Origin: Candidatus Tumulicola sp.
GTDB taxonomy: Bacteria; Vulcanimicrobiota; Vulcanimicrobiia; Vulcanimicrobiales; Vulcanimicrobiaceae
Direction of reading: 5' to 3'
DNA: 64,000 nt
Assembly: GCA_036490475.1 (NCBI GenBank)
Contig: DASXDT010000006.1
Coordinates: forward strand, 868,001 to 932,000
Shown here: positions 26,329-33,570 of the stretch, piece after piece
Numbering within the stretch: the first letter of the stretch is position 1
How the letters are laid out: every line of letters starts with the position of its first letter
Notes under the pieces: model-generated
What the model was told of the DNA's origin: nothing
The model's database searches: none
The model's input: only the letters and a program-made list of their open reading frames with translations
Program-made: the position numbers and the translations under genes

Positions 26329-26836
26329 ACGGCACGTCGCGCCGTTCGTCGGACCGCGTTGGTACGTCGCGGCCGCATGGTTGTTTGGCGCCGCCGTGGT
26401 CCAGACCACGTTTGGCCATTCGCTCTCCATTCGCACCGCCGTTCCGAGTTTCGTACTCGTCGTGGTCGTTTGGTATGCGGTTCGCGTCGATGCGGTGCGA
26501 GCCGCGACGTTCGGATTGGCCGCGGGCCTCGTCGAGGACGGACTGGCAGTCACCACCGGTGCGGCGTGGACGATCTCGACGCTGGTCACGGCCGTCGTCG
26601 TGAGCTTGCTGTCGCGCGGATTCTTCGCCGATTCGATCCCGCTGGCCGCCGTTGCGACCGCCGTCGCGACGTTGCTTCGCGCGCTACTGTTTTGGACGAT
26701 CGCATCGCTCGAAGGTTTTCCGCCCGGGCTGGCAACGTCGCACTTCCATCAAACGCTGTTGGCAACCGCAATGAACGTCGCTACGATGATCGTCGCGATG
26801 CTGGCGATGCGGCGGTACGAAGCGCTGCGTTCGTGA
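26309..26836 (+). CDS. mreD: rod shape-determining protein MreD
   Basis: A small polytopic membrane protein of the elongasome. About 175 residues from TTG 26309 (or GTG 26294), overlapping mreC by 20-35 bases. Five hydrophobic segments are visible (for example FVLVVVVWYAVRV and ISTLVTAVVVSLL). Sequence conservation in MreD is low, so the call rests mainly on the position between mreC and mrdA, the length and the membrane pattern. The start is uncertain. Confidence 0.85.
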   Translation: MSLSRDKRHVAPFVGPRWYVAAAWLFGAAVVQTTFGHSLSIRTAVPSFVLVVVVWYAVRVDAVRAATFGLAAGLVEDGLAVTTGAAWTISTLVTAVVVSLLSRGFFADSIPLAAVATAVATLLRALLFWTIASLEGFPPGLATSHFHQTLLATAMNVATMIVAMLAMRRYEALRS

Positions 26837-28686
26837 ATCAAGGGCGCCCACAGGAGCGGCGCATCGGTTGGCAGCCTCCGGTGTGGCGCATCGTCGCGTT
26901 CATTGCGTTGGTGTTGCTCGCGCTGGCCGCGCTGGCCGCACGATTGGTCGAAGTGCAAATCTTCGATGGCGACCGCTATCGACAAGAGGCGTTGGCTAAT
27001 CAGATTCGTTTGATTCCGGTCGCCGCGCCGCGCGGCATCATGTACGACCGGCACGGTACGGTGTTGGTGCGCAGCCGGCCGTCGTTCGTCGTCGGGCTGA
27101 TTCCCTCGCAAGTGACCGACATCGATTCCGACCTGCAACGCTTATCGACCGCTATCGGCGTTCCGGTAGCGACGTTGCGCGACCGGCTATTGCATCATCG
27201 CGGCATCGACTACAAGACGTTCGACGAAGTGGTCGTGAACGAACCGTATGGCCCGGTGGTGCTGGCGCGCGACTTGCCGGTCGCTTCGACCGCACGCCTC
27301 TCGGAATTGTTGAGTGACATGCCGGGTGTCGATTTGGAAGTACAGCCGGTGCGCGATTATCCGCATGGCCCGCTCGGCTCGCACATTTTCGGCTACGTCG
27401 GTGCGATTACCGAAGAAGAGTATAAAACGCTGGCGCGCGAGGGCTACTCGCCCAACGACGTCATCGGTAAAGACGGACTGGAATACCAATACGATCGCTA
27501 TCTGCGCGGCATTCCGGGGGGCGAGCGCGTGATGGTGAACTCCAGCGGCTCGGTGGTGGCCAACGTCGCTTCGCAATCGCCGGTTGCCGGGGATACGCTG
27601 GTCACGAACCTCGATTGGCGACTGCAATCGATCGTGGAAAGTGCGCTGGCCGACGGCATCGCGCGCTGGGGTCACGGGCGGCGGCTTTCGGGTGCGGTGG
27701 TGGCGGAAGATCCGTGGACCGGCGGCATTCTCGCGCTCGCGAGTTATCCCAACTTCGATCCGCGAGACTTCGCGGCCGAAAAATCGTCGCGCGTTCGCCG
27801 TTACCTTACCGACGTGTCGGAGCCGCTGTTCGACCGCGCCATCGCCGCCGCAACGCCCACCGGTTCGACGTTCAAAATGGTTACCGGGTCGGCCGCGCTC
27901 ACCGAAGGCGTGGTGCGCGTCAATCAAGTGGTGTACGACAGCGGTGGCTGGAACTGCGGCGGTTACTATGCGCGCGACATCGCGTCCGGCGGCATGGGCA
28001 ATACGACGTTCGTGCCGGCGCTGGCGGCGTCGAGCGACGGCTATTTCTATCGTTTGGCGTGGTGGCTCGGAAACGCGCGATTGCGTAAATATGCATTGGC
28101 GTTCGGCTTGGACGCGAAGAGCGGCATCGACATTCCAGGTGAAAACGAAGGCAATTGGCCGACCAATGCGTGGGAGATGCGAAACTTCGGCGTTCCGATG
28201 GAGCCCGGTGACGCGTGTTTTTTGGGAATCGGTCAAGGCGCGATGCAAGCCACGCCGCTGCAGATGGTCAACGTCGCGTCGACCGTGATTAACGGCGGCA
28301 CGTTATGGCGTCCGCAGATCGTTCGCGAAATTCGCGATCCACACGGCGCGGCGGTGAAGTCGCTTCCGCCGGTGGCGATTCGCCAAGTGCCCGTAACGCA
28401 AGAGGCATTGGCCGCGGTGCGGGCCGGCATGGCGCGCGTCACCGGCCCGGGCGGAACTGCCGCCGGTCTCGGGATCGACGGCTTGCCGTACTCAGGAAAA
28501 ACCGGAACCGTAGAAACGGCCGGTGGTAACGGGCCGAATACGACGTGGTTCGTCGCGTGGGCACCGAGCGATCATCCTAGAATTGCGTTAGCAGTGTTCG
28601 TCGATCGCAGTGGCGGATACGGCGCGCAGGTGGCGGCACCGATCGCGCGCGACATCCTTGTCAGATACTTTAAAAAGAAGCCGTAG
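26833..28686 (+). CDS. mrdA: penicillin-binding protein 2 (peptidoglycan transpeptidase)
   Basis: The elongation-specific transpeptidase. 617 residues from GTG 26833, which overlaps the mreD stop. One membrane anchor (about 17-37), a non-catalytic pedestal domain (RGIMYDRHGTVLVRSRP onward), then the transpeptidase domain. Active-site motifs are STFK with Ser345, SSD (about 400; PBP2 has S-x-D where other PBPs have S-x-N) and KTGT with Lys556. No rodA follows; the next gene is convergent and overlaps the last 17 bases. Confidence 0.95.
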   Translation: MNQGRPQERRIGWQPPVWRIVAFIALVLLALAALAARLVEVQIFDGDRYRQEALANQIRLIPVAAPRGIMYDRHGTVLVRSRPSFVVGLIPSQVTDIDSDLQRLSTAIGVPVATLRDRLLHHRGIDYKTFDEVVVNEPYGPVVLARDLPVASTARLSELLSDMPGVDLEVQPVRDYPHGPLGSHIFGYVGAITEEEYKTLAREGYSPNDVIGKDGLEYQYDRYLRGIPGGERVMVNSSGSVVANVASQSPVAGDTLVTNLDWRLQSIVESALADGIARWGHGRRLSGAVVAEDPWTGGILALASYPNFDPRDFAAEKSSRVRRYLTDVSEPLFDRAIAAATPTGSTFKMVTGSAALTEGVVRVNQVVYDSGGWNCGGYYARDIASGGMGNTTFVPALAASSDGYFYRLAWWLGNARLRKYALAFGLDAKSGIDIPGENEGNWPTNAWEMRNFGVPMEPGDACFLGIGQGAMQATPLQMVNVASTVINGGTLWRPQIVREIRDPHGAAVKSLPPVAIRQVPVTQEALAAVRAGMARVTGPGGTAAGLGIDGLPYSGKTGTVETAGGNGPNTTWFVAWAPSDHPRIALAVFVDRSGGYGAQVAAPIARDILVRYFKKKP

Positions 28687-29065
28687 CGCCCGTTAGCAGC
28701 GAGAGGTCGCGTGCGATGCGTTCGCTGCGCGCGCCCGGCCGCGTTGCGAAATAGGTTTGGACGACGGCATCTTCGCCGCGCACCGTCAACGCGTTGGCTG
28801 CGGCCAGTGCGACCGCTTCGGACGGATCGTCGAGTGCTTCTTGCAACATCGCGGTTCGATCGGCACCGGACAATTCGCCGATCGCGAAGATCATGTCGCA
28901 ACGCGCGGCTTCGGAAAGGCCTTCGAATCCCTCACCCGCTCGTCCCGTCCACGACGTACGTTCGACCGGCTGGACGCGCCGGCTCGAGCGGCGCGCTAGG
29001 ATGACGGCGACGAGGGCGATCGCGACGACGACCGCAACGACGACCGCAACGACGGCAGGGATCAC
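28670..29065 (-). CDS. membrane-anchored HEAT-like small protein
   Basis: 131 residues, unrecognised by name. A valine/alanine-rich membrane segment (about 2-25) and a basic stretch (ARRSSRR) are followed by a helical domain whose repeats (MIFAIGELSGADRTAMLQEA, then DDPSEAVALAAANAL) resemble HEAT/Armadillo repeats. The basic stretch after the membrane segment predicts that the HEAT part is cytoplasmic. The GTG start at 29065 overlaps the stop of the large repeat protein (GTGA), so they are translationally coupled and probably act together. The 3' end overlaps convergent mrdA by 17 bases. Confidence 0.75.
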   Translation of the reverse strand: MIPAVVAVVVAVVVAIALVAVILARRSSRRVQPVERTSWTGRAGEGFEGLSEAARCDMIFAIGELSGADRTAMLQEALDDPSEAVALAAANALTVRGEDAVVQTYFATRPGARSERIARDLSLLTGATASF

Positions 29066-32000
29066 TGCGTCGACAACAGCGCTCGAACGTCTTCGAGAGC
29101 GCGATCTAACTCCGGGTCGGCGCGATGTTGCAATCGTTCGAGGAAGTCGGCCGGGTCGAGCGATGCCGCTTCGTCCATGCGCCGTATCAGTAATGCGCGA
29201 TAGCGTGCCGCCGCATCGTCGCGATCCGGCAGAAGTCGTGCCAATAACGACCATGGAGCGGCGGTCGCCAACGGGGCCGCGTCGAGGCGTTCGCTGGCCT
29301 CGTCGAAATCCGTTGGGTCGAAGAAACCGCGAAACGTTTCTGCATCGTGCGGCGGATCGGCCGGCGCCCCGGTCGCGAGCGACGCTTCGTAGGCAAGGCG
29401 TTTGATACTGGCCCGCAACGACGGCGTTTCGACGTCGCGCTCGGCCAACGCGTAACTCGGCAGGCGGAGCTTGATAAACAGCCGGTCCAGCTCTTCGCGT
29501 AGTGCGTCGCGCACCGCCGACAATGCGGTGCAATGCGCGCTGCCGATCGCGTCGGGCAGCAACACGCGAATCGCGAACAAGTGTGCGCCTAATCCGTCGA
29601 ATTTCGCTTGCGCCAGGAAACGTCGCGCGTGTTCGGCGCGCTGTGGCGACAGCCAGAGTGCGAACCCGGTACGCGCCGCGATCGTCTCCACGATCGATCC
29701 TTCGTGCACTTCGCCGCCGCCGGCGCCCGGCACGAGGATCGCGGCCTCCAACACCAAGTCCGCACCATTCGCGGCCACCACCGGCGTTGCGGGCGGAAGT
29801 TCGAGGAAGCGATGTTCGGTTAACGAGCGCGCGTATTGCGGCGAGGCCGGCCCGATCACGCCGTCGAGACCGAACGGCAGGCCTGCGATCGCATTGGCGA
29901 ACACCGGCGTCGAGCGAACTTTGAGTGCGTTCGATGCAACGGTGTCCGCGCGGTCGCCGTCGTACCGGCATTCGGCGGTAGCGACCAGCGCTTCACCGGC
30001 CGCAACGCCGTTGTTGACGACGTCGCGCCAGCGAATCGTCGCCTCGACACCTGGGTCGACGTCGTTCAGCGCGATGCCGTCGACCGCGAATGCCGGCACG
30101 GCGCCGGAGTCGCGCACCGGCACGTCGTTCACCGTGGTCGAGTTCGGCACGTAAATCAACGCGTTTGGCCGCTCGACGGCGATTCGCACGCGCCGCGCCG
30201 GGCCGTCGCCGCCGTTGCGAACGTGCAACGTCCAGTCGATCGTTTCGCCGACGTCGACCACATCGACCGGTTCGCTGGACAGCGTTGCAATCGAAAAATC
30301 CGGCTCGGCTGCGGTCGCGATCGTTAATCGCTCCAACTGCAGCGGAAGCATCGCGCGGGCCGTCAGCACGGCGTCGACGGTAACGGGAAATTCTTTGGCG
30401 AGTCCGCGCAACAGCCGCACGCCTAAACGGGCGCGTGCGTTGCCGCCGGGAGCGATTTCGCCAAACACCAGCGAAGATTTTTCGCGCGCCGCTCCATCGA
30501 CCGATTCCAACCGCGCTTCGGGCGAAACGTATAATCGAAGCCGAACGTCGTGAGCCACGTCGGTTCCCGCGTTAACGAGCATGACGTCGATGTCGGCGAT
30601 TTGATTCGGCCGTACGACCTCGTCGCCGGCACGTTCGATGCGCGAAGTCTGCGGATCGAATCGCGGATGCGAATCGACCGTCCAGCGCACGTCGCCAAGC
30701 GAGGTCTCGCCCAGCTCGCGGCAGTGCACGGTCGCGCCCAAGCGTACTTCGCTGCGATCCGGCATGGGCGAGCGCACGCGCGCCCGCAGTGAGATACGGC
30801 GCGCCGCGTTGGGTTCGAGCGTTCCCATATCGAGCGCGTCGATTTCGAGCGGCAGGCGCGTGGCTTTATCGAAGGCGCGCACGTCTTCGATGCCGTCGCC
30901 CGCTCGAACGTGCAGCACGACGTCGCCGGCGGCGGCGCTGCCGTCGTTGGCGAGGTCGACCCAGGCTTCGATTGAGTCGCCGGGGTGCACGGTCTGGCCG
31001 GTCGACGTCCACAAACCGTTGCGTCTTGCGCCAAGTGCCGGTTCGGACCGGACCGTGATCGTGCGTTCCAGGCGGCGCGACGACGACGCGCCGGCCGGTT
31101 GCCAATCGAGCGTTACCGCGACCGGCAGCGAGCTAGCGTCGGGCATCGGTGTGACGACGACGGCTTCGAGACGCAGCTCGGCGCCGCTTTCGGAATCGAT
31201 GCGTCCGAGATCGAAGCTCGACGCGTTGTTGCGACGCGGCGGAATCGCGCGTCCGTCGATTTTCGCGCTCCCGCGCACGACGGACAGGCCATCGGGAAGT
31301 TCGACGCCCGCGGTAACGGTTTCGGCGCACGCAGTGCCACCGTTCCACACGGCAAGAACGAGAGCGACGCGTTGTCCCGGACGTGCGTCTTGCGACGGGT
31401 CCAGTGAAAGCGACGTGCGATCGTCGGCAAAATCGGGAGCCGACCGAACGACTAAGGCGGCCGGCGCGAGCGCGAAGGCCGGAGACTCTTGCGACGCAAC
31501 CGAGGCTGCAACGTTGACGACCGTGCCGTCGGACAGCGGCGCTTCGATGCGGACGCGATAGGCCAGGATTGCCGATGCGTTCGCAGGCAGCACCGGCGCG
31601 ACGACCGGCGCGTACGAACGGTCGAACGCTTGGCCGGAAGCGTCACGATCGAAATCGCGTCCATTGAGCCGAGCGGATCCCGAGACGTAGCTGGTGTGCA
31701 GCGGGATCGGCGCAACCACGACCACGTCGTGGGCGCTCGATTCGCCGGCGTTGTGCACGCGAACCGTGACCGTCGCTTCGTTGCCGGGTACCGCTGACGA
31801 GCGGGCCTCTATGGTGGCCATGGTTAACGCGTTTTCGAGGGCCGGCCGGCTGCGTGCGACGAGACGAACGACGTTGGACCCGACCGGCGCCAGTTCGAAC
31901 GATGCGACGGCCGCCTGCAGTTCGATCGTGGTACCGTTTTCGATCGCGCCGGCAACGCTGTATGCGATGTCGATGCGGCGTTCCTCACCCGGGGCGACGT

Positions 32001-32286
32001 CGCCCAGCGGGGCGCCGGCGCGCGATATCAACGGCGACGTACCACGTTCGTCGTCGAGAACCGTGCCGTCGACGTCGCCGCTTCCGACCAAATACACCAG
32101 GCCATCGGGGATCGTGAAACGGACGCGAACGCCGGTTGCGGGAGCGCCGCCTTGGTTGCGAAACGTGAACGTCGCGCGTATCGTCATTCCAGGTTCGAGC
32201 TCGCGCTCGGGCGAAACGACGAGCGTCCGGAGGCCTTCGGGTAGCGTCGGTGTTCCCGGCGCGAACGCCTCCGACAAGGTTCGCAT
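29062..32286 (-). CDS. large tandem DUF11/CARDB-like repeat protein without signal peptide
   Basis: 1074 residues from ATG 32286. Roughly the first 770 residues are six repeats of 115-140 residues. Each opens with PG/PN-x-(I/V) and a strand containing N-x-G (for example FRNQGGAPATGVRVRFTIPDG, VHNAGESSAHDVVV, VRNGGDGPARRVRI), often followed by a LPDGL...GS segment. This is the pattern of DUF11/CARDB/BACON-like immunoglobulin folds, usually found in secreted proteins. No signal peptide or membrane segment is present. The last 300 residues are different: mixed, then helical and acidic/basic (LREELDRLFIKLRLP, LDRALEDVRALLSTQ). It is coupled by overlapping codons to the membrane-anchored HEAT-like gene. 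The function is unknown; a cytoplasmic scaffold is one possibility. Confidence 0.8.
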   Translation of the reverse strand: MRTLSEAFAPGTPTLPEGLRTLVVSPERELEPGMTIRATFTFRNQGGAPATGVRVRFTIPDGLVYLVGSGDVDGTVLDDERGTSPLISRAGAPLGDVAPGEERRIDIAYSVAGAIENGTTIELQAAVASFELAPVGSNVVRLVARSRPALENALTMATIEARSSAVPGNEATVTVRVHNAGESSAHDVVVVAPIPLHTSYVSGSARLNGRDFDRDASGQAFDRSYAPVVAPVLPANASAILAYRVRIEAPLSDGTVVNVAASVASQESPAFALAPAALVVRSAPDFADDRTSLSLDPSQDARPGQRVALVLAVWNGGTACAETVTAGVELPDGLSVVRGSAKIDGRAIPPRRNNASSFDLGRIDSESGAELRLEAVVVTPMPDASSLPVAVTLDWQPAGASSSRRLERTITVRSEPALGARRNGLWTSTGQTVHPGDSIEAWVDLANDGSAAAGDVVLHVRAGDGIEDVRAFDKATRLPLEIDALDMGTLEPNAARRISLRARVRSPMPDRSEVRLGATVHCRELGETSLGDVRWTVDSHPRFDPQTSRIERAGDEVVRPNQIADIDVMLVNAGTDVAHDVRLRLYVSPEARLESVDGAAREKSSLVFGEIAPGGNARARLGVRLLRGLAKEFPVTVDAVLTARAMLPLQLERLTIATAAEPDFSIATLSSEPVDVVDVGETIDWTLHVRNGGDGPARRVRIAVERPNALIYVPNSTTVNDVPVRDSGAVPAFAVDGIALNDVDPGVEATIRWRDVVNNGVAAGEALVATAECRYDGDRADTVASNALKVRSTPVFANAIAGLPFGLDGVIGPASPQYARSLTEHRFLELPPATPVVAANGADLVLEAAILVPGAGGGEVHEGSIVETIAARTGFALWLSPQRAEHARRFLAQAKFDGLGAHLFAIRVLLPDAIGSAHCTALSAVRDALREELDRLFIKLRLPSYALAERDVETPSLRASIKRLAYEASLATGAPADPPHDAETFRGFFDPTDFDEASERLDAAPLATAAPWSLLARLLPDRDDAAARYRALLIRRMDEAASLDPADFLERLQHRADPELDRALEDVRALLSTQ

Positions 32287-32373: not shown

Positions 32374-33570
32374 ATGCTCGCAACGCACGATGCCCGCATC
32401 ACGTCTGCGGTCGAACGTTTGGGATCGGAGAACGCATTCGAAGTCCTGGCGCGCGCGCGCCAGCTCGAAGCGCAGGGCCGCCGCGTCGTGCATATGGAGA
32501 TCGGCGAGCCGGATTTCGACACGCCCGAACACATCAAGAAAGCGGCGGTCGAAGCGTTGTACGACAGCCACACGCACTACACGCCGTCGGCCGGTATCCC
32601 GTTGCTGCGTGCGACGATCGCCGAGTATGCCAGCCGCTTCCGCCACATTTCGCCGGTGTATACGGCCGAAAACGTCGTCGTGGGACCGGGTGCGAAACCG
32701 ATTATTTGGAACGTGTTATCGGCGTTGTTGAACCCGGGCGACGATTTCATTTATTTCGATCCGGCGTATCCCGCGTACGCTTCCTGTTCGAGTTATCTGC
32801 AGGCCAACGTGCACGCGATTCCGTTGCTCGAGTCGCGCAACTGGAGAATGGATCTCGACGAGCTTGAAACGCGCGTCTCGAATAAGACCAAAGCGCTCGT
32901 GATCAACTCGCCGCACAATCCGACCGGCGGCGTGCTGACGCGCGGCGATCTCGAACGCATCGCCGAGATGGCGCAACGCCACGACTTCCTCGTGATCGCC
33001 GACGAAATCTACAGCCGCAACTTCTACTTGGATTCTGACTATCTGTCGATCGCAGCTTTAGACGGCATGCGCGACCGCACGATTATCGTCGACGGCTTCT
33101 CGAAGGCGTACGCGATGACCGGCTGGCGCTTAGGCTATGCGATTCTACCGGAAGAGCTCGCGAAAGTCGTGACGCTGTTCAACAATAATACGTTCAGCTG
33201 CGTCACCGGCTTCGTGCAGATGGCCGGCGTCGCCGCGTTGACCGGTCCCGACGAACCGGTGCGCCGCATGAACGAAACGTTCCGTCAGCGCCGCGACCGT
33301 TTGGTCGCCGGTCTCAACGATATCGACGGCTTATCGTGCACCCTGCCGGAAGGCGCGTTTTACGCGTTTCCCAATGCGATGGCAATCACGCACGACGATC
33401 GCGCGCTCGCAAAATTCTTGCTCGAAGAGGGCGGCGTTGCATGCGGCGGCGGCTCGTCGTTCGGTGCTGCAGGCAAAGGCTATTTGCGTTTTTCATACGC
33501 CGCTTCGCTCGACGACATCGACTGGGCGCTCAAACAGATCGCCACCGTATTGCCTCAATTCAACGGCTAA
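32374..33570 (+). CDS. class I pyridoxal-phosphate aminotransferase
   Basis: 398 residues of the aspartate/aromatic aminotransferase fold type I. Motifs: MEIGEPDFDTPEHI near the N-terminus, NSPHNPTGGVL (cofactor and substrate contacts), IADEIYSRNFY and the Schiff-base lysine in GFSKAYAMTGWRLGY. The C-terminal domain closes with GYLRFSYAAS, whose Arg binds the substrate carboxylate. ATG 32374 is preceded by GAAAGGGA at good spacing. The amino-acid specificity is not determined; AspB-like enzymes and several amino-acid pathways share these motifs. Divergent from the large repeat protein, cotranscribed with trpS. Confidence 0.93.
   Translation: MLATHDARITSAVERLGSENAFEVLARARQLEAQGRRVVHMEIGEPDFDTPEHIKKAAVEALYDSHTHYTPSAGIPLLRATIAEYASRFRHISPVYTAENVVVGPGAKPIIWNVLSALLNPGDDFIYFDPAYPAYASCSSYLQANVHAIPLLESRNWRMDLDELETRVSNKTKALVINSPHNPTGGVLTRGDLERIAEMAQRHDFLVIADEIYSRNFYLDSDYLSIAALDGMRDRTIIVDGFSKAYAMTGWRLGYAILPEELAKVVTLFNNNTFSCVTGFVQMAGVAALTGPDEPVRRMNETFRQRRDRLVAGLNDIDGLSCTLPEGAFYAFPNAMAITHDDRALAKFLLEEGGVACGGGSSFGAAGKGYLRFSYAASLDDIDWALKQIATVLPQFNG

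Follow-up and report, generated by a model that had tools for sequence, protein, structure and literature searches.

A conserved pair of multi-Ig and membrane-HEAT proteins in Candidatus Tumulicola, tentatively read as a scaffold for motility machines

Within a 64,000-nucleotide stretch of the Candidatus Tumulicola sp. assembly GCA_036490475.1 (contig DASXDT010000006.1, positions 868,001 to 932,000; hereafter the window), which comes from a soil-type bacterium not yet in culture, two overlapping genes on the reverse strand, here called A and B, encode a long protein made mostly of immunoglobulin-like (Ig-like) domains and a short membrane protein with a HEAT-like part (Table 1). The A-B pair is real and conserved and, as far as our searches show, undescribed: no paper joining cytoplasmic DUF11 proteins with HEAT proteins or type IV pili in this way was found in titles and abstracts, in agreement with an earlier note, made from the letters of this DNA alone, which knew of no system of this composition. 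A homologous pair located in a type IV pilus operon and a paralogue in a flagellar gene cluster lead us to consider a role of A-B in organizing motility machines.

Table 1. Features of the A-B locus (positions within the window)
Feature	Position	Strand	Description
Gene A	29062..32286	-	1074 aa, ATG start; six Ig-like domains of the DUF11/CARDB kind, then a disordered linker and an alpha/beta domain at the C-terminus
Ig domain 1 and conserved N-terminal motif (MRTLSEAFAPGTPTLPEGLRTLVVSPE)	31846..32286	-	Residues 1-147; conservation profile, AlphaFold model
Ig domain 2	31435..31827	-	Residues 154-284; best DUF11 stretch 163-265, model
Ig domain 3	31042..31416	-	Residues 291-415; model
Ig domain 4	30667..31023	-	Residues 422-540; model
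Ig domain 5	30307..30648	-	Residues 547-660; model
Ig domain 6	29911..30291	-	Residues 666-792; model
Linker, disordered and poorly conserved	29683..29907	-	Residues 794-868; predicted local distance difference test (pLDDT) < 50
C-terminal domain (CTD)	29065..29682	-	Residues 869-1074; two pseudo-repeats; own model
Overlap of A stop (TGA) and B start (GTG), GTGA	29062..29065	-	Four shared bases
Gene B	28670..29065	-	131 aa, GTG start; N-terminal membrane helix at residues ~4-25, RRSSRR, HEAT-like part at residues ~48-105
Promoter-like element TCAAGG-N16/17-GGCGAA	32298..32326	-	Directly 5' of the ATG of A; conserved across genera
Aminotransferase gene (aat)	32374..33570	+	Divergent from A; most persistent neighbour of A
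mrdA (PBP2) open frame	26359..28686	+	Convergent with B, ends overlapping by 17 bp; partner not constant

The earlier note had read A as a tandem Ig-like protein of the DUF11/CARDB kind, and both profile searches and structure prediction bore this out. DUF11 (PF01345) matches the protein in four stretches (E-value 4.8e-29, 101.4 bits against a Pfam gathering cut-off of 24.6), CARDB and NPCBM_assoc match as well, and an AlphaFold model of the full-length protein, built on 39 aligned sequences, contains six beta-sandwich units of 111-131 residues each between residues ~21 and 792. Identity over the full length is 48-63% across genera of the family and still 33-35% in the next family, so that A is not a chance reading frame. 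Conservation is best in the N-terminal motif and Ig domain 1 (majority-residue conservation of 80-92% in blocks 1-150) and amounts to 0.28-0.43 over residues 826-875, within the linker region.

Protein A has no signal peptide or membrane segment, as had been noted from its sequence; 19-residue hydropathy peaks at 1.52 overall and at 0.51 over the first 60 residues. Its start codon is the right one, since the alignable start "MRTL[ST]E.FAPG.P.LPEGLRTL" is common to more than 30 relatives and no conservation is seen upstream. No export signal and no hydrophobic N-terminus were found in the orthologues of A, which supports the earlier idea of an intracellular, membrane-bound pair. The element TCAAGG-N16/17-GGCGAA lies 10-20 bases 5' of the ATG of A both in the window and at other loci, with no Shine-Dalgarno sequence, and is possibly a promoter whose transcript would have a very short leader; a FliA-like identity of this element received no support from the upstream regions of flagellin genes.

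What had been described as a helical C-terminal part of 300 residues is in fact a disordered linker of 75 residues followed by a folded alpha/beta domain of 205 residues, the CTD. Modelled alone, this domain is compact (pLDDT 93.9; predicted template modelling score, pTM, 0.88), with two beta-strands and two similar halves that form a two-fold pseudo-repeat. On the window sequence it matches no Pfam family, a PDB sequence search returned no match, and structural comparison gave no convincing fold in the PDB (Foldseek best E 1.5; VIA-align Z <= 4.0) and no known fold in BFVD (Foldseek). The genomes sampled were those of Ca. Eremiobacterota (Vulcanimicrobiota), 103 from the order and 46 from the rest of the phylum; with the CTD alignment as query, matches were obtained in 81 of the former and in none of the latter.

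Protein B begins with a single strong membrane segment, of hydropathy 3.56, with RRSSRR after it. As this basic stretch follows the membrane helix, the positive-inside rule would place the N-terminus outside and the C-terminus, with the HEAT part, in the cytoplasm. The membrane segment claimed by the earlier note stands, while its HEAT-like part is weak in the window protein taken alone (HEAT_2, PF13646, 1.8e-4 and 22.1 bits vs. a Pfam cut-off of 27.7) and is matched at E <= 0.01 in 20 of 23 relatives of B (best 3.9e-8). The overlap of the stop of A with the GTG of B was also read correctly, and these shared GTGA bases suggest that the two genes are likely translationally coupled.

The common gene order at this locus in relatives is aat, A, B, often a further pair C and D, and then mrdA on the opposite strand; the window carries A and B only. 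C has the same six-Ig/CTD build as A, to which it is 33-34% identical, and its partner D is a further membrane-HEAT protein, related to B (hhalign probability 96.8, E 2e-10). Between B and mrdA, C was located at L031 (9331-12588), L041 (10310-13636) and L052 (13691-16987), each copy having its own D in overlapping frames.

Broadly, a membrane-HEAT gene comes after nearly every multi-Ig/CTD gene, and does so at several unrelated loci. A search with a hidden Markov model (HMM) placed a B-type gene at most 250 bases from the A-type stop in 45 of 63 distinct loci; in the other 18, the A-type gene is a C gene (eight cases, mostly followed by D) or codes for the CTD end of a fusion protein (six), and a membrane-helix gene stands at the expected position in three of the last four. 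Such pairs lie next to aat, at a tig-clpP-clpX/priA locus (L091, L098, L115), with a SpoIIE-type protein as neighbour (L090) and after a secretin (L114), so that A and B, whose constancy as neighbours the earlier note had left to a comparison of relatives, stay adjacent at other chromosomal places as well. The module is also carried by a single-contig genome of 3.51 Mb without flagellin (G009), in which a PAS-GAF-SpoIIE protein comes after the pair. In one clade, the membrane helix, HEAT part and CTD are joined in a single protein; these fusions were seen at L043-L050 and L053 (e.g., L049 13201-14376), and the Ig array of C is absent there.

Degraded copies of A include one with an internal deletion (L055, 10001-10940), a 34-residue stub (L056, 6835-6984) and a broken frame (L010, 978-4209). 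The broken or stub copies in L055, L056 and G005 are all found in genomes without flagellin, and G005 also lacks pilQ. At L096 and L097 lie clusters of proteins of 720-1100 residues whose N-termini are signal-like; one of these proteins is DUF11-like, and their layout is unrelated to that of A.

Several relatives of the pair lie among genes for pili and flagella. A shorter CTD protein related to A, here called T, is encoded directly 3' of pilQ in each of the eight genomes in which it was seen; these belong to genera without A-B. In the loci read, the next genes after T encode a membrane-HEAT protein, X, and then a T2SSE-type (PilT-like) ATPase, in an operon that includes pilM. A relation of X to the longer B proteins was found by hhalign (probability 98, E 2.2e-13). 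T maps to 1852-2949 in L110, 1417-2493 in L111, 5872-6951 in L112 and 6908-7972 in L113, within the type IV pilus operon. G026 has a second A-B-like pair, in an operon of the order secretin-GGDEF-HD_5-A''-B''; this arrangement of secretin, GGDEF, HD_5, A-like and B-like genes, located at L114 (4579-11765, family f2), is possibly a secretin system linked to cyclic di-guanosine monophosphate (c-di-GMP).

On the flagellar side, a shortened relative with one Ig and one CTD-like domain, F, adjoins fliD, fliS and an AAA_22 ATPase, and full-length F is restricted to flagellate genomes and G074, as full-length C is to flagellates and G074/G124. At the F loci (L093, L095, L100-L103), a glycosyltransferase-like gene accompanies fliD/fliS and the AAA_22 ATPase, and the pairing of ATPase and F recurs. 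In the non-flagellate genus g18 (G096-G102, G018), A-B is intact, whereas F survives as a relic of its Ig part only and C as a relic of its CTD only. In family f2, B directly adjoins a flagellin gene in convergent orientation (L089 11858-13243, L094 6323-7678).

The genome of the window has pilB/T, pilC, pilin, leader peptidase, pilM and pilQ (pilM...Q operon) and no flagellin; its sister G001 has neither pilQ nor flagellin, and no A. Across 60 genomes at least 90% complete, for which presence lists were compiled by hand, A or T occurs in 42 of 42 with pilQ or flagellin vs. nine of 18 with neither (Fisher's test p-value 3.3e-6, shared ancestry ignored), and in 42 of 42 vs. four of eight once genus g36 is left out (p-value 3e-4). 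A cultivated member of this group of bacteria, Vulcanimicrobium alpinus, has been described as showing type IV-pilus phototaxis (PMC9758169).

Drawing on the architecture of the two proteins, their pairing and conservation, the membrane helix, the HEAT-CTD fusion, the pair in a pilus operon and the paralogue in a flagellar cluster, all read from sequence, we tentatively favour A-B as a membrane-tethered cytoplasmic scaffold that would serve motility machines, namely type IV pili and, where present, flagella, a reading to which we give somewhat less than an even chance. B would be inserted in the inner membrane by its one helix and offer its short HEAT part to the cytoplasm, where it would bind A, probably through the CTD, which is the likely contact because one clade fuses HEAT to CTD. 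A would then project as a rod of six Ig domains, with the N-terminal motif and Ig domain 1, as its most conserved part, likely contacting the target. We infer that this partner is most likely part of a motility machine that spans the envelope, on its cytoplasmic or inner-membrane side; the module would position, stabilize or switch that machine. The best-supported candidate in the window genome is the type IV pilus; in relatives with the paralogues C-D and F, the flagellum may be a target as well.

Other observations weigh against a scaffold dedicated to motility machines. In the lineage of the window, A-B does not adjoin pilus genes and the pilus operon is without T-X; half of the near-complete genomes lacking both pilQ and flagellin keep A; and the rate of A relative to aat shows no difference between flagellates and non-flagellates (p-value 0.74). 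The co-occurrence counts, moreover, take no account of shared ancestry, and the replacement of A by T was probably one event, since the T genomes form one clade on the tree. Tree-based pair tests (C or A/T vs. appendages) were almost never opposite in direction, with three to four usable pairs and without significance, and the functional case is drawn wholly from gene neighbourhood and co-occurrence. A function in the flagellum only was rejected on account of the intact A-B of the window genome and other non-flagellates and of the lack of a difference in rate relative to aat; the faster evolution of A that long branches had suggested in non-flagellates was gone after this normalization.

A role of A-B wider than appendages is possible, because A persists in half of the appendage-less genomes and evolves no faster in non-flagellates. 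The pair could then be a general membrane-proximal scaffold or cell-pole organizer, of which the pilus and flagellar copies would be specialized offshoots. The same retention of A and its lack of relaxed evolution fit such a scaffold, as do the A-B pairs at the tig-clpP-clpX/priA locus and beside the SpoIIE/PAS/GAF protein, but the losses and broken copies of A fall among genomes without detected appendages, and homologous pairs are located in secretin operons, so that we regard it as rather unlikely. Alternatively, the HEAT-CTD contact might be switched by a second-messenger or phosphatase pathway, making the pair not a scaffold but a signalling adaptor in control of motility output. The GGDEF and HD_5 genes between secretin and A'' in G026, the PAS-GAF-SpoIIE protein after the pair in G009 and the AAA_22 ATPase adjoining F would agree with this; however, neither A nor B has a known signalling domain and the signalling neighbours differ from locus to locus, which makes an adaptor improbable in our view.

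The presence of mrdA next door had led the earlier note to suggest a scaffold possibly near the elongation or division machinery, and in most A-carrying genomes of the family the cassette does lie between mrdA and aat. The suggestion did not hold up: mrdA is on the opposite strand and convergent with B; in family f2 the pair adjoins aat while mrdA is on another contig; A is kept in G022, where the locus has lost mreC, mreD and mrdA; and the examined genomes without A retain mrdA. Where the cassette is absent, mrdA and aat usually adjoin, often within ~100 bases. With the linkage broken in this way, and homologous pairs pointing instead to pili, secretin/c-di-GMP operons and flagella, we reject the connection through mrdA and consider an elongation or division scaffold highly improbable. 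It is harder still to see A as a secreted or surface DUF11 protein, even though that is the usual state of such arrays, given a start fixed by conservation, orthologues uniformly free of signal peptides and membrane segments, and a partner whose HEAT part is predicted to be cytoplasmic; we give this next to no weight.

Returning to the motility-scaffold reading, A-B can be set beside several known systems. DUF11 and CARDB (PF07705) arrays are mostly exported proteins. A resembles them through a domain match above the Pfam cut-off and differs in not being exported, in combining six domains with a new CTD, and in being encoded with a membrane-HEAT partner, which removes the assumption that these arrays always lie outside the cell. 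The B family likewise matches the HEAT_2 model, with the difference that one to about three HEAT units follow a single membrane helix and that the B of the window stays below the cut-off. The weak match of the Ig part of A to TIGR03900 (MXAN_5808 family serine peptidase) is, at 31 bits, far below the cut-off of 661, and A has no peptidase domain. Anti-phage defence was set aside, as none of the four proteins A, B, T and F matched a PADLOC model at E <= 0.1. The top Foldseek matches of full-length A, 9ijj and 7sqc (E 7e-26 to 3e-20), are multi-Ig (ASH-type) proteins of the eukaryotic axoneme central apparatus, which are also intracellular rods of Ig-like domains; at 10-12% identity and low TM-scores, they have the string-of-sandwiches layout in common with A, a likeness that does not demonstrate kinship.

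Closest in proposed role are the polar landmark proteins FimV/HubP, described as large cytoplasmic scaffolds anchored in the inner membrane that serve type IV pili and flagella (PMC12918733). The likeness is confined to this role: in A-B, anchor and rod are two proteins, with no sequence relation to FimV/HubP. Neither A nor B matches the periplasmic LysM-like domain (Pfam, E <= 1) or the C-terminal TPR/FimV domain, A ending in the CTD instead; as these defining features are absent, A-B is not a member of that group. It is tempting to speculate, although we find it more doubtful than the motility role itself, that a membrane-HEAT tether, an Ig rod and a new C-terminal fold make up an order-specific scaffold unrelated to FimV/HubP, duplicated and adapted to the type IV pilus, a secretin/c-di-GMP operon and the flagellum, which would make it the first DUF11 system in the cytoplasm and a novel type of motility-machine organizer. 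The A-B pair adds a confidently predicted domain that has no known fold match, and it offers a testable route to the organization of pili and flagella in a poorly known phylum.

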